A stretch of DNA of 64,000 nucleotides from Candidatus Poribacteria bacterium (GTDB lineage: Bacteria > Poribacteria > WGA-4E > WGA-3G), in contig JAPOQK010000107.1 of NCBI GenBank assembly GCA_026710795.1, forward strand, positions 1 through 64,000, given 5' to 3'. Positions within the stretch are counted from its first letter, which is position 1. Each line of letters begins with the position of its first letter. Below the pieces are notes generated by a model. The model was not told where the DNA came from and did no database searches. It saw nothing but the letters and a program-made list of their open reading frames with translations. Positions 21,786 through 25,845 of this stretch are shown here, one piece after another. A program made the translations under genes and the position numbers.

Positions 21786-22278
21786 GATTTTGACATTTAA
21801 TTGTTTCTTAATAATTCGTTAGCTGCCGTCAGTTCAGACAGTGATTACAACTAAACTCTCATCAAATTTATTGAAAAGTTTTCTTACCTTATTGCCTAGA
21901 TGTGTGTGGCTACGCTACCTTTTCTTTAATCTCACTTCACTAAAATAGAATCATTGAACTTGGATATTTTTTAGTGCTGATTAACGTTATTAAGGCATTG
22001 AAGTTGTTATTTTATTTAGACTAAGATTTAGGCATTTTATACTATTATTTTGGTTTTATTTTCAGTTTCACTGTCTATATTCTTTAGTTGAAGCCAATAA
22101 ATTGTTAACAAAATGCGAAGACAATTTCAGTTTAAACTTCTTAATAATTTAACTTGTAATTTTAATATAAAAAATGTTATAATTCACGTCCATATCATTG
22201 ATATTTTTGTATGAAATTTATAACATTTTAATAACATGAATAATGCAATTTGCCATCTTAGTTGGTAGGAACATTCGT
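21786..22278. other. AT-rich dnaA upstream region
   Basis: A gap of nearly 500 bp, very AT-rich, with no coding potential. It contains the probable dnaA promoter at 22154-22183. No TTATCCACA box is visible. Confidence 0.6.
22154..22183 (+). promoter_or_regulatory. Probable dnaA promoter, extended -10
   Basis: TTGTAA (22154-22159) and a perfect TATAAT (22178-22183) are spaced by 18 bp. The -10 is preceded by TGT, giving the extended TGnTATAAT form. It lies 95 bp upstream of the chosen dnaA start. Confidence 0.55.
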
Positions 22279-23616
22279 ATGCAATACACCTCTGATTCCC
22301 TCTGGTTAGAAATACTTGAAACGCTTGGTGAAACAGCCAACAACGATATTTATCTACATCAAGTCTCCCCTCAGACACTTGACGAGGAAACTTTTTACAT
22401 TGCTGTTCCTTCCGATTATACACGAGACGAAATTGAAAATAGATTTCTCAGTGACATCAACCAGTTATTAGCAGGTATAATAAGTCCCGGTTGTGAGTTA
22501 GTTATTTCCGTAGACACCACTCTTGCCATAATTCCTGAATCTGAAAAAACTGAACTTGAAACTGAAGATATTATTCCAGTAACAACTGGCTTGAATCCGA
22601 ATTATGTTTTTGACAATTTTTGTGTTGGTCAGAGCAATCGAATATGTCATGCGACTGCTTACGCTGCGTCTCAGGATTTAGGTGGAGAATACAATCCTCT
22701 TTTTATATACGGTGGTGTGGGACTCGGGAAAACACATCTACTTCATGCTATCGGAAATTGTGTCCAAGATGTAAGTCCAAAACGGAAAGTTCTTTATGTT
22801 ACCTCTGAAACGTTTATGAATGAATATATTGATTCCATCATGAACCGGACTTCCGCCCATGGGTTTCGCTCAAAATATCGCAAAGCAGACCTTCTGCTAA
22901 TTGATGACATTCAATTTTTACAACGTAAAGAAGGGACGCAAGAGGAATTCTTTAATACTTTTAATGATTTATATCTGAACTCAAACCAGATTGTAATGAC
23001 AAGTGATCGGTCACCAAGTATGCTTGAGAATCTTGAAGAAAGACTCAGTTCACGTTTTGAATGGGGCATGGTCGCGGAAATAGATAAACCGAATTTTGAA
23101 CTTCGTCTTATGATTCTAAAGCGAAAATGTGAAGAGCAAGGCTTCGATAATATTCCGGACGAAGTACTGCACTACATAGCAGAAATAGTTACAGCAAACA
23201 TCCGAGAATTGGAAGGGACATTGGTAAGTCTGAAAGCACGAGCATCCCTACTTGATGAAAAGTTAACTATTGACCTTGCCCGTAGCGTATTAAACGATAC
23301 GGCTACCCTTACCAGAAGTAATTCACGGAATAGAATTGTTACAGCTGAAACAATACAAAAAATTGTTGCGGATCATTTTCAACTGCAAAGCAACGATCTA
23401 ACATCAGCAAAACGGACAAAAGGACTCGTTTACCCTCGTCAAATTGCAATGTATCTTTGCAGAGAACTGACGCAACTTTCTCTGATTGATATTGCTGAAG
23501 TTTTCAATAGACAAAACCATAGAACCATTACGTATGCTTGTGAACAAATTGAAAAACAACTTGAGGACGATGAAACAAAAAAGATTATACAGATTTTAAC
23601 TGCTGAATTGACTTAA
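22279..23616 (+). CDS. dnaA: Chromosomal replication initiator DnaA
   Basis: AAA+ initiator that binds origin boxes and opens the duplex. Chosen start 22279 gives 445 residues and places the domain I motif LWLEIL near the N-terminus; an ATG 12 codons upstream is less likely. Domain III has Walker A GGVGLGKT (145-152), Walker B LLLIDDIQF and the sensor region. Domain IV has YPRQIAMYL (385-393). In the recognition helix the usual GGRDHTTV is NRQNHRTI (410-417): relative to E. coli, R432 is Gln, D433 is Asn, H434 is kept, and T435 is Arg. R399 is Lys (K381). This suggests an altered box preference, in line with the unusual repeats just downstream. dnaN does not follow. Confidence 0.96.
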   Translation: MQYTSDSLWLEILETLGETANNDIYLHQVSPQTLDEETFYIAVPSDYTRDEIENRFLSDINQLLAGIISPGCELVISVDTTLAIIPESEKTELETEDIIPVTTGLNPNYVFDNFCVGQSNRICHATAYAASQDLGGEYNPLFIYGGVGLGKTHLLHAIGNCVQDVSPKRKVLYVTSETFMNEYIDSIMNRTSAHGFRSKYRKADLLLIDDIQFLQRKEGTQEEFFNTFNDLYLNSNQIVMTSDRSPSMLENLEERLSSRFEWGMVAEIDKPNFELRLMILKRKCEEQGFDNIPDEVLHYIAEIVTANIRELEGTLVSLKARASLLDEKLTIDLARSVLNDTATLTRSNSRNRIVTAETIQKIVADHFQLQSNDLTSAKRTKGLVYPRQIAMYLCRELTQLSLIDIAEVFNRQNHRTITYACEQIEKQLEDDETKKIIQILTAELT

Positions 23617-24021
23617 AGAACAGTCGGAAAAACCTTACCGTCATACGATTTCTATGAGTTATTATCAATTAATGATAATAACTTGATAATAACTTGATAA
23701 TATATTCCAATTCTTGCTAATAACTTGTTAATAACTTTTCTTGAAAATGAGTCATGTTAATAACTTGATAATAAGTCTAAATTTATTATCAAGTTATTAT
23801 CAACTACAAAACCAATCCCAGACAGAATTCAGAGCAGTTATTAACATATTATCATCCCCTACTACTACTACTACGTACTATTAAATTTTAAATTGTACTT
23901 AATAATATAATTAGAGTATTCGGAAAACCATTAAAAAAAAATCGTATAATTATTATAGTGAATATAAAAATTGGAAATTATTATGTTTGATTGTTAGGTA
24001 AAAAGAAATGGTAATGTTCAG
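23617..24021 (+). other. oriC: Putative chromosomal origin oriC (box cluster, DnaA-trio, AT-rich unwinding tract)
   Basis: The dnaA-recF intergenic region. It carries at least nine box-like 9-mers of two types: TTATCAAGT/TTATCAAYT (23662-23670, 23681-23689 rev, 23692-23700 rev, 23763-23771 rev, 23786-23794, 23797-23805) and TTATTAACA (23726-23734 rev, 23755-23763 rev, 23838-23846). Then come TTATCATCC (23849-23857), a CCCC stretch (23856-23859), five CTA triplets (23859-23873; TAG repeats on the other strand) and an AT-rich tract (about 23877-23950). Box, GC-rich spacer, DnaA-trio and unwinding tract occur in the order known from Bacillus subtilis. Position next to dnaA and recF adds support. 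Confidence 0.8.
23761..23796. repeat. Perfect 14-bp inverted repeat inside oriC
   Basis: TAACTTGATAATAA (23761-23774) and its exact reverse complement (23783-23796) flank an 8-nt spacer. Each arm contains one TTATCAAGT box, so two boxes face each other. A second, 10-bp arm pair (GTTATTATCA at 23658-23667 and TGATAATAAC at 23673-23682) lies 90 bp upstream. Confidence 0.8.
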
Positions 24022-25182
24022 ATGTATTTAGAACGTTTATGTCTTCGAAATTTTCGAAATTATAAGGAGTGTGACATAACATTTCATTCACCAGTAACGT
24101 TGATTGTTGGAAAGAATGCAATGGGGAAAACCAATCTCCTTGAATCGCTTTATTTTCTTTGTACCGGTGAATCACACCGCGCTAATTCTACTATTGAATT
24201 AATTCGTCATACATCTGAAGGATTTGCTCTTACCGGTTATTTTCGTAGTGATAAAAGCCCTGGATTGCCTGTACGACTTGATGCAGTTAAGCCTCGTCAA
24301 GGTGCTTTCCGATTAAAAACTGATGGTGTGTTACAACGAAAAAGGTCTGACTGGATAGGCAAGTTCAAAGTAGTTGTATTTTCCCCAGAATCTCTGGAAA
24401 TTGTCAAAGGATCACCTACATTCCGCAGGCGATGGCTTGATCTCCTTTTATCACAACTGAATCGGGAATATCTGGAAGAACTTCAACGTTATCGTGATAT
24501 ATTACAGCATCGTAATGCTTTGTTGAAGCGAATAAGTATAGGAAAGGGACCAATTAACGAAATATCGGTTTGGGACGGACTTCTGCTTGAATCTGGGGTT
24601 GCGTTGATTGGCGCACGACATACTGCGTTAGCAAAACTAAGCAGTGTTGTAGAGAACACACATCTCTCATTAACGGGAGGAAGAGAACGGCTTTTATTGC
24701 ATTATACACCAGGACTTGATATCGCAAGCATAGAACTATCCGATATTACATATCTATCGGATAGTTTCGGTGAGGCTTTAGCACGCGCGCGCGGAGATGA
24801 ACTGCGTCGTGGGGTAACGCTTGTCGGACCTCATCGGGATGACTTTACGTTGGATTTGGAAACGCTGAACGGAAACGAAACACACTTGCATGAAACAGCG
24901 CGAACTTATGCCTCCCAAGGACAGTGTAGAACTATAGCACTCGCATTAAAACTTGCGGAATTAGAGTTTATTCGTGAGGATACGGGTGTTGCTCCACTTT
25001 TTCTACTTGATGATGTTCTATCTGAATTAGATGTGAAAAGACGCGAATACTTATTAGCGTATCTCCAAGTTGTTGCTGCTCAGACGGTGATTACGGCAAC
25101 TGATAAGGATGTTATGGGGGACGAATTAACAGATGTACATCTATTAATAGTCGAGGAAGGTGTAATCATTAATGATAATTAA
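24022..25182 (+). CDS. recF: DNA replication and repair protein RecF
   Basis: A 386-residue SMC-like ATPase that loads RecA at gapped DNA through RecOR. It shows LRNFRNYKECDITFHSPVT, Walker A GKNAMGKTN (about residues 30-38), the ABC-like signature YASQGQCRTIALALKLAE, and Walker B APLFLLDDVLSELD. Full length. It follows oriC directly; dnaN, which often sits between dnaA and recF, is missing from this locus. It is followed 57 bp later by the DUF721 gene. Confidence 0.94.
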   Translation: MYLERLCLRNFRNYKECDITFHSPVTLIVGKNAMGKTNLLESLYFLCTGESHRANSTIELIRHTSEGFALTGYFRSDKSPGLPVRLDAVKPRQGAFRLKTDGVLQRKRSDWIGKFKVVVFSPESLEIVKGSPTFRRRWLDLLLSQLNREYLEELQRYRDILQHRNALLKRISIGKGPINEISVWDGLLLESGVALIGARHTALAKLSSVVENTHLSLTGGRERLLLHYTPGLDIASIELSDITYLSDSFGEALARARGDELRRGVTLVGPHRDDFTLDLETLNGNETHLHETARTYASQGQCRTIALALKLAELEFIREDTGVAPLFLLDDVLSELDVKRREYLLAYLQVVAAQTVITATDKDVMGDELTDVHLLIVEEGVIINDN

Positions 25183-25239: not shown

Positions 25240-25845
25240 ATGAAACATAAGAATACTGAAAGCAAATATGTTAAAAAATTGACTGTAAAAAGGCTACGCT
25301 CAAAGTCGCGGCGCGGGACAATTAGATTTCGAAGCGTTGTAGACACTATGGTGCGTGAGCATGGGTGGTCTGATAAACTTTTTGAAAGAAGTGTTTTTGG
25401 TGTATGGGAGTCGGTTGTTGGTAAGGAAATAGCTGTACACTGTGTTCCTGTTTCATTATTTGATGGTGTGTTAAAGGTAGACGTAGCACATCAAATGTAT
25501 GCTAATGAACTGTCGGCAATGAAACCTGAAATATTATCAGGACTTAAAAAAAAACTTGAAGAGTTGAATTTACGCGCACGACGATCTGTTCAACATAACA
25601 AGGTAATTGATATTAGGTTTCATTTTAACCCGAAAATTGCTACGGAAAGAAACGGTGAAGATGGAACTAAACCTGAATCAAGTCAAGAACCGACGCACGA
25701 CATGCGTAAGAGTGCTAAATCTGTTTCACCTGAGATGATGGAACAGATTGAAGCAGCTGTTTCCGGAGTAAGGGATTTAGAGTTACGAGATGCGTTACAA
25801 ACACTTTTTTTAACACTGTGTGGTGATACAGAGACTACAGAATGA
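25240..25845 (+). CDS. dciA: DUF721/DciA-like protein (putative helicase loader)
   Basis: A 201-residue protein with a basic N-terminus (KRLRSKSRRG) and a DUF721 (DciA) domain at about residues 25-125: VFGVWESVVGKEIAVHCVPVSL and LKVDVAHQMYANELSAMKPEIL. DciA proteins load or assist the replicative helicase DnaB in bacteria without DnaC/DnaI. A charged linker and a helical C-terminal segment (about 165-195) follow. Its place between recF and gyrB in the origin locus is the common one for this family. Confidence 0.85.
   Translation: MKHKNTESKYVKKLTVKRLRSKSRRGTIRFRSVVDTMVREHGWSDKLFERSVFGVWESVVGKEIAVHCVPVSLFDGVLKVDVAHQMYANELSAMKPEILSGLKKKLEELNLRARRSVQHNKVIDIRFHFNPKIATERNGEDGTKPESSQEPTHDMRKSAKSVSPEMMEQIEAAVSGVRDLELRDALQTLFLTLCGDTETTE

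Follow-up and report, generated by a model that had tools for sequence, protein, structure and literature searches.

Matched DnaA recognition-helix and DnaA-box types at a probable chromosome origin of Candidatus Poribacteria

The dnaA–recF gap and its box cluster

The window (the whole stretch of DNA that was analysed, 64,000 nucleotides) lies in a 4.70-Mb draft genome of a Candidatus Poribacteria bacterium, with metagenome-assembled genomes of Candidatus Poribacteria as the nearest named relatives, and carries, in this order, dnaA, an intergenic gap, recF, dciA, gyrB, and gyrA. The DnaA protein, which is about 57–62% identical to the DnaA of the family's other genera, contains both the PF00308 AAA+ domain and the PF08299 C-terminal helix-turn-helix domain. 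Gene calls place the dnaA–recF gap exactly at 23617–24021, as an earlier note on this DNA had it, and a gap beside dnaA, recF, and gyrB is a neighbourhood of the oriC type. An Rfam search of the window gave no match. The features of the locus are as follows.

22243–23616, plus strand: dnaA, 457 amino acids (Pfam Bac_DnaA 6e-64, Bac_DnaA_C 9e-25)
23617–24021: gap between dnaA and recF, the very probable oriC, in the same place across the family
23659–23667, plus strand: box TTATTATCA
23673–23681, minus strand: box TTATTATCA
23684–23692, minus strand: box TTATTATCA, 11 bp after the box at 23673
23695–23703, minus strand: box ATATTATCA, 11 bp after the box at 23684
23715–23723, minus strand: box TTATTAGCA
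23726–23734, minus strand: box TTATTAACA
23755–23763, minus strand: box TTATTAACA
23766–23774, minus strand: box TTATTATCA
23783–23791, plus strand: box TTATTATCA
23794–23802, plus strand: box TTATTATCA
23838–23846, plus strand: first box of the trio-proximal pair, TTATTAACA, in register with the relatives' TTATCCACT
23846–23854, plus strand: second box of the trio-proximal pair, ATATTATCA, in register with the relatives' TTATCCACA
23855–23858, plus strand: C-rich spacer TCCC, which separates box and trios (most relatives likewise have 4 bp here)
23859–23873, plus strand: five DnaA-trios, (CTA)5, CTACTACTACTACTA
23874–23933: 60-bp AT-rich tract that follows the trios and is presumed to unwind
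24022–25182, plus strand: recF
25240–25845, plus strand: dciA, helicase-loading factor family (PF05258 1e-15)

The gap thus holds 12 boxes on both strands, ten of the form TTATTA[TAG]CA (TTATTATCA, TTATTAACA, and TTATTAGCA) and two ATATTATCA. The window contains 13 copies of TTATTAWCA, for an expectation of 2.3 +/- 1.6, and nine of the 13 fall within 23659–23846; the ten TTATTA[TAG]CA boxes of the gap alone compare with 0.12 in dinucleotide shuffles. The nine or more 9-mers reported for the gap in the earlier note therefore stand as an above-chance cluster, but not the 9-mer types that were named as boxes (TTATCAAGT, TTATCAAYT, and TTATCATCC), which are out of register in the alignment with relatives. 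In that alignment, AGTTATCCACTTATCCACAGCCCCTACTACT lies opposite AGTTATTAACATATTATCATCCCCTACTACT, and the relatives' trio-proximal AGTTATCCACTTATCCACAGCCCCTACTACTACT (for example in G039) lies opposite the window's AGTTATTAACATATTATCATCCCCTACTACTACT, so that TTATCCAC(A/T) has been replaced by TTATTAACA and ATATTATCA. The window's TTATTATCA and TTATTAACA occupy the positions at which relatives carry TTATCCACA or TTATCAACA. The same note had found no canonical boxes, correctly: no TTATCCACA with up to one mismatch occurs between 22358 and 27736, gap included, and boxes of the canonical TTATNCACA type are absent from the gap, a state whose probable reason, missed at that time, is that the DnaA recognition helix has changed together with the boxes.

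Beyond the boxes, the spacer is indeed C-rich, although it reads TCCC and not CCCC, the final C being part of the first CTA. The five CTA triplets lie where they had been placed, and CTACTACTACTACTA is the sole match in the window when up to one mismatch is allowed, with none in shuffles; the tract past the trios is AT-rich, as proposed, at 80% A+T.

The origin reading and the basal unwinding system

Boxes, spacer, trios, and AT-rich tract follow one another as in descriptions of the basal unwinding system, for which a box is expected at most 16 bp from the trios, usually in a tandem pair (PMC8287927), together with at least three trios that have their middle A on the lower strand. In the window, TTATTAACA and ATATTATCA lie 12 bp and 4 bp, respectively, from the first of five trios. 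Conservation among relatives, a check named beforehand, was followed in the 49 family genomes with a readable dnaA–recF gap; the layout is kept, and in 47 of the 49 a run of three or more trios lies no farther than 12 bp from a box, the two exceptions being one contig end and one variant. This family layout agrees with the criteria by which basal unwinding systems have been searched for in published work (PMC8287927, PMC6669920). The B. subtilis oriC version of the system consists of DnaA-boxes 6/7, a short spacer, and DnaA-trios (PMC6669920, PMC8287927), and shares with the window the tandem box pair, the short C-rich spacer, the repeated CTA (3'-GAT-5'), the AT-rich tract, and an intergenic site just after dnaA. 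It differs in its TTATCCACA-like boxes, which stand against TTATTAACA and ATATTATCA in the window, and in the neighbour of the gap, dnaN in B. subtilis versus recF here. The chromosome origin of this Candidatus Poribacteria genome very probably lies here, and there is good support for an origin of the type that combines DnaA boxes with DnaA-trios, as the same gap has this layout with canonical boxes elsewhere in the family.

GC skew was followed in the congener G020, which is assembled as one contig (OY282386.1), using 60 samples with gene orientation corrected by four-fold sites, since raw 20-kb samples were dominated by gene orientation. The corrected signal is weak, with t = 1.7 at dnaA (1.665 Mb) and a best fit at 1.80–1.90 Mb (t = 2.8), and in this one congener the weak best fit lies 135–235 kb from dnaA.

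The whole reading, which we hold with considerable confidence, is that of a Poribacteria oriC with the architecture of the basal unwinding system, in which the code of the initiator boxes has changed and is read by an altered DnaA domain IV. A DnaA domain IV that carries Arg, Thr, and Tyr where E. coli has Thr435, Leu438, and His439 would bind the TTATTA[T/A/G]CA cluster, and the box pair at 23838–23854 would position DnaA-ATP. The AAA+ filament is then predicted to capture the CTA/GAT trios at 23859–23873 and to melt the AT tract beyond them, and the Arg-Thr-Tyr set may itself be the cause of the new box specificity.

Helix type and box type across the family

The portion of DnaA that concerns the boxes is given below.

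23347–23550, plus strand: DnaA domain IV, DNA-binding helix-turn-helix (PF08299, residues 369–436; aligned with E. coli 1j1v)
23515–23538, plus strand: recognition-helix motif NHRTITYA (from the alignment with 1j1v)

The motif NHRTITYA stands in the place of DHTTVLHA in E. coli. Arg427 (codon AGA, 23521–23523) aligns with E. coli Thr435, Thr430 with Leu438, and Tyr431 with His439, and the canonical base-contact set D433-H434-T435 is replaced by N-H-R. Residues 435, 438, and 439 of E. coli DnaA are base-contacting positions (PMC5043019), and the T435M protein is defective in box binding (PMC5742627). Residue 435 in other phyla is Thr, Ser, Ala, or Gly, and Arg is absent from this position, among the retrieved GTDB loci, which are a sample and not a census.

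DnaA helix type and box type match strictly across the 49 genomes. All 11 genomes with NHRT (Arg type) carry 6–10 TTATTA[TAG]CA boxes and 0–1 canonical boxes, and all 38 with NHTT or DHTT (Thr type) carry 6–15 canonical TTAT[CG][CAG]ACA boxes and 0–1 of the new type, against a chance expectation of about 0.1 for either. Across TTATNNNCA, the boxes of the Arg types comprise 64 TTATTATCA, 24 TTATTAACA, and six TTATTAGCA, and those of the Thr types of the same genus comprise 17 TTATCAACA, 12 TTATGCACA, four TTATCGACA, four TTATTGACA, and two TTATCCACA; position 5, and partly position 6, is variable among the relatives' canonical boxes too. Every one of the 11 Arg-type genomes has the tandem pair TTATTAWCA-NN-TTATTAWCA, with copies confined almost entirely to the dnaA locus, and all five Thr-type congeners lack it. 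Independent contrasts agree in all three pairs (sign test p = 0.25, a test that cannot reach significance at n = 3).

Three other accounts of the cluster can be weighed against this match. The tandem 11-bp copies TGATAATAACT could mean that TTATCAAGT is the true unit, an 11-bp iteron with no relation to DnaA boxes, which is scarcely credible: the two bases 3' of TTATTATCA in tandem copies differ across species (AG, AC, TG, AT, and GG) while the 9-mer is constant, and TTATTATCA and TTATTAACA exactly overlay the relatives' boxes, also beside the trio. That the cluster serves DnaA titration or autoregulation, with the true origin elsewhere, would accord with the lack of a clear GC-skew turn at dnaA, yet we consider it very improbable, given that 47 of 49 genomes retain the box pair, spacer, trios, and AT tract as a set, that no boxes were found upstream of dnaA in the genus, and that the few tandem pairs at other loci lie within open reading frames. 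The pairs considered as regulatory sites away from oriC lie inside repeat-protein coding sequence in G006 and G008 (NNYPLIIMLLSF) and, as a single pair, inside an ORF in G014, a genome with no dnaA match, and they therefore give no evidence of a regulon.

The boxes might also have drifted toward A+T by mutation under a DnaA of relaxed or unchanged specificity, the difference at residue 435 being coincidental. Arg-type gaps are slightly richer in A+T (0.73–0.76 vs 0.71–0.73 in Thr-type congeners), and E. coli DnaA does not read position 5 (PMC5043019). Nevertheless, Thr-type congeners at nearly equal A+T retain C or G at this position, convergence on one 9-mer repeated 6–10 times is not expected from drift, and the split is complete and tracks a patchy helix motif, not the species tree, so that drift appears unlikely. 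A changed code read by a changed domain IV is the reading that we retain.

History of the change and its precedents

The Arg state is patchy, requiring three changes on the trees of DnaA domains I–III and GyrB and two on that of RecF, and a single Arg clade is rejected by the AU test with all three (DnaA I–III p = 0.0002, RecF p = 0.011, GyrB p = 1e-94). The Thr type is probably ancestral, because the outgroup genera are of this type. In contrast to these trees, domain IV DNA without codons 435–439 groups the Arg types with modest support (78/93); domain IV rejects the I–III topology (p = 0.02), and DnaA I–III rejects the domain IV topology (p = 7e-6). The sitewise likelihood in favour of the I–III history rises by 76 before domain IV and then falls by 13 to the gene end. 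Because domain IV alone prefers one Arg clade and the other trees reject one, these comparisons suggest a linked block: domain IV and the boxes beside it would have changed together, or passed together from one species to another. Since the two adjoin in the DNA, this is the simplest reading.

Within this explanation, how the block came to be shared is a sub-question. We tentatively propose that domain IV and the boxes form a portable "reader plus word" cassette with the orthogonal code Arg435/TTATTATCA, which would have moved between species by recombination while the remainder of dnaA, the trio, and recF stayed as they were. Exchange is put as probable only, because sliding identity reveals no clean recombination tract. 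The identical Arg-Thr-Tyr set and box change may instead have arisen in parallel two to three times, with no exchange, a possibility to be taken seriously although we stop short of favouring it. The number of changes required by the DnaA I–III, GyrB, and RecF trees speaks for it, as does G016, whose closest sequences throughout domain IV are those of Arg-type sisters and which retains its own lineage's CTACTGTTACTACTA trio; this retention, together with the lack of a sharp identity tract, is what keeps parallel change in consideration. Against it stand four derived residues common to the Arg types, including Glu at 442, synonymous codon states common to them (GCT/GCC vs GCA), and the rejection of the I–III topology by domain IV.

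The nearest precedent is provided by the T5 boxes of epsilonproteobacteria (Helicobacter and Arcobacter), which have the core TTCAC (PMC5043019). Common to both cases are a T fixed at box position 5 and a DnaA altered at residues 435, 438, and 439. However, the epsilonproteobacterial boxes keep C6-A7, whereas the window's boxes have A6 and T7 (or A/G) and thus TTATC or TTAAC in place of TTCAC at positions 4–8; residue 435 is usually Ser, often with Ser438 and Lys439, in contrast to Arg435/Thr438/Tyr439 in the window type. Unlike the epsilonproteobacterial change, the one described here separates members of a single genus and can be compared with Thr-type sisters. In Thermotoga maritima, whose DnaA boxes are ACCTACCAC (PMC10316083), initiator and box have likewise both diverged from the canonical code, but the box is unrelated in sequence and a within-genus comparison is lacking. 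What is new here is that reader and word have changed in step within a single genus.

DnaA is the universal bacterial replication initiator protein, and few words in bacterial genomes are as conserved as the DnaA box, because a change in the reader alone, or in a dozen boxes alone, should be lethal. In this sponge-associated genus, DnaA and the origin word have changed together and patchily, in a manner for which a single inherited change fails on gene trees, which offers a natural case in which to study partner switching by an essential protein and the DNA that it reads. Close species (about 70–80% DnaA identity) carry either of the two matched codes, and the joint change of initiator and origin is therefore directly testable by swapping residues 435/438/439 and the boxes. 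Origin finders that rely on TTATCCACA will miss such origins.

Several further observations concern the relatives. In three genomes of family f4 of the same order (G070, G071, and G072; loci L241–L243), two of them 96% complete, none has a PF00308 or PF08299 match, and the sequence before dnaN shows neither a box cluster nor a trio; gyrB is present, the order dnaN-recF-dciA-gyrB is retained, and an rpmH-like gene (recognised by eye) on the reverse strand adjoins dnaN, dnaA being expected between the two. This suggests that dnaA was lost together with oriC; dnaA loss has been described for some cyanobacteria (PMC7198777). The lack of a dnaA or gyrB match in G014 (96% complete) and G038 (90% complete) probably reflects assembly gaps at the origin. 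Most genomes of the sister families f2 and f3 have a second DnaA-like gene (L253–L255 and others) of about 390 aa, with 38–42% identity, a match that begins after domain I, and no obvious origin adjoining it; in G064 and G068, this is the only copy seen. On a 5.7-kb contig (L258 2987–3328, G009:C292), a 113-aa ORF resembling DnaA domain IV alone adjoins a DNA methyltransferase-like gene, and the contig is perhaps a mobile element or foreign. In family f3, the DnaA of G067 (L245) has VHTT (Asp433 to Val) with the boxes TTATACACA and TTATGAACA, and its sisters G065, G066, and G069 have DHTT with mostly TTATCCACA boxes, a possible further case of co-change.
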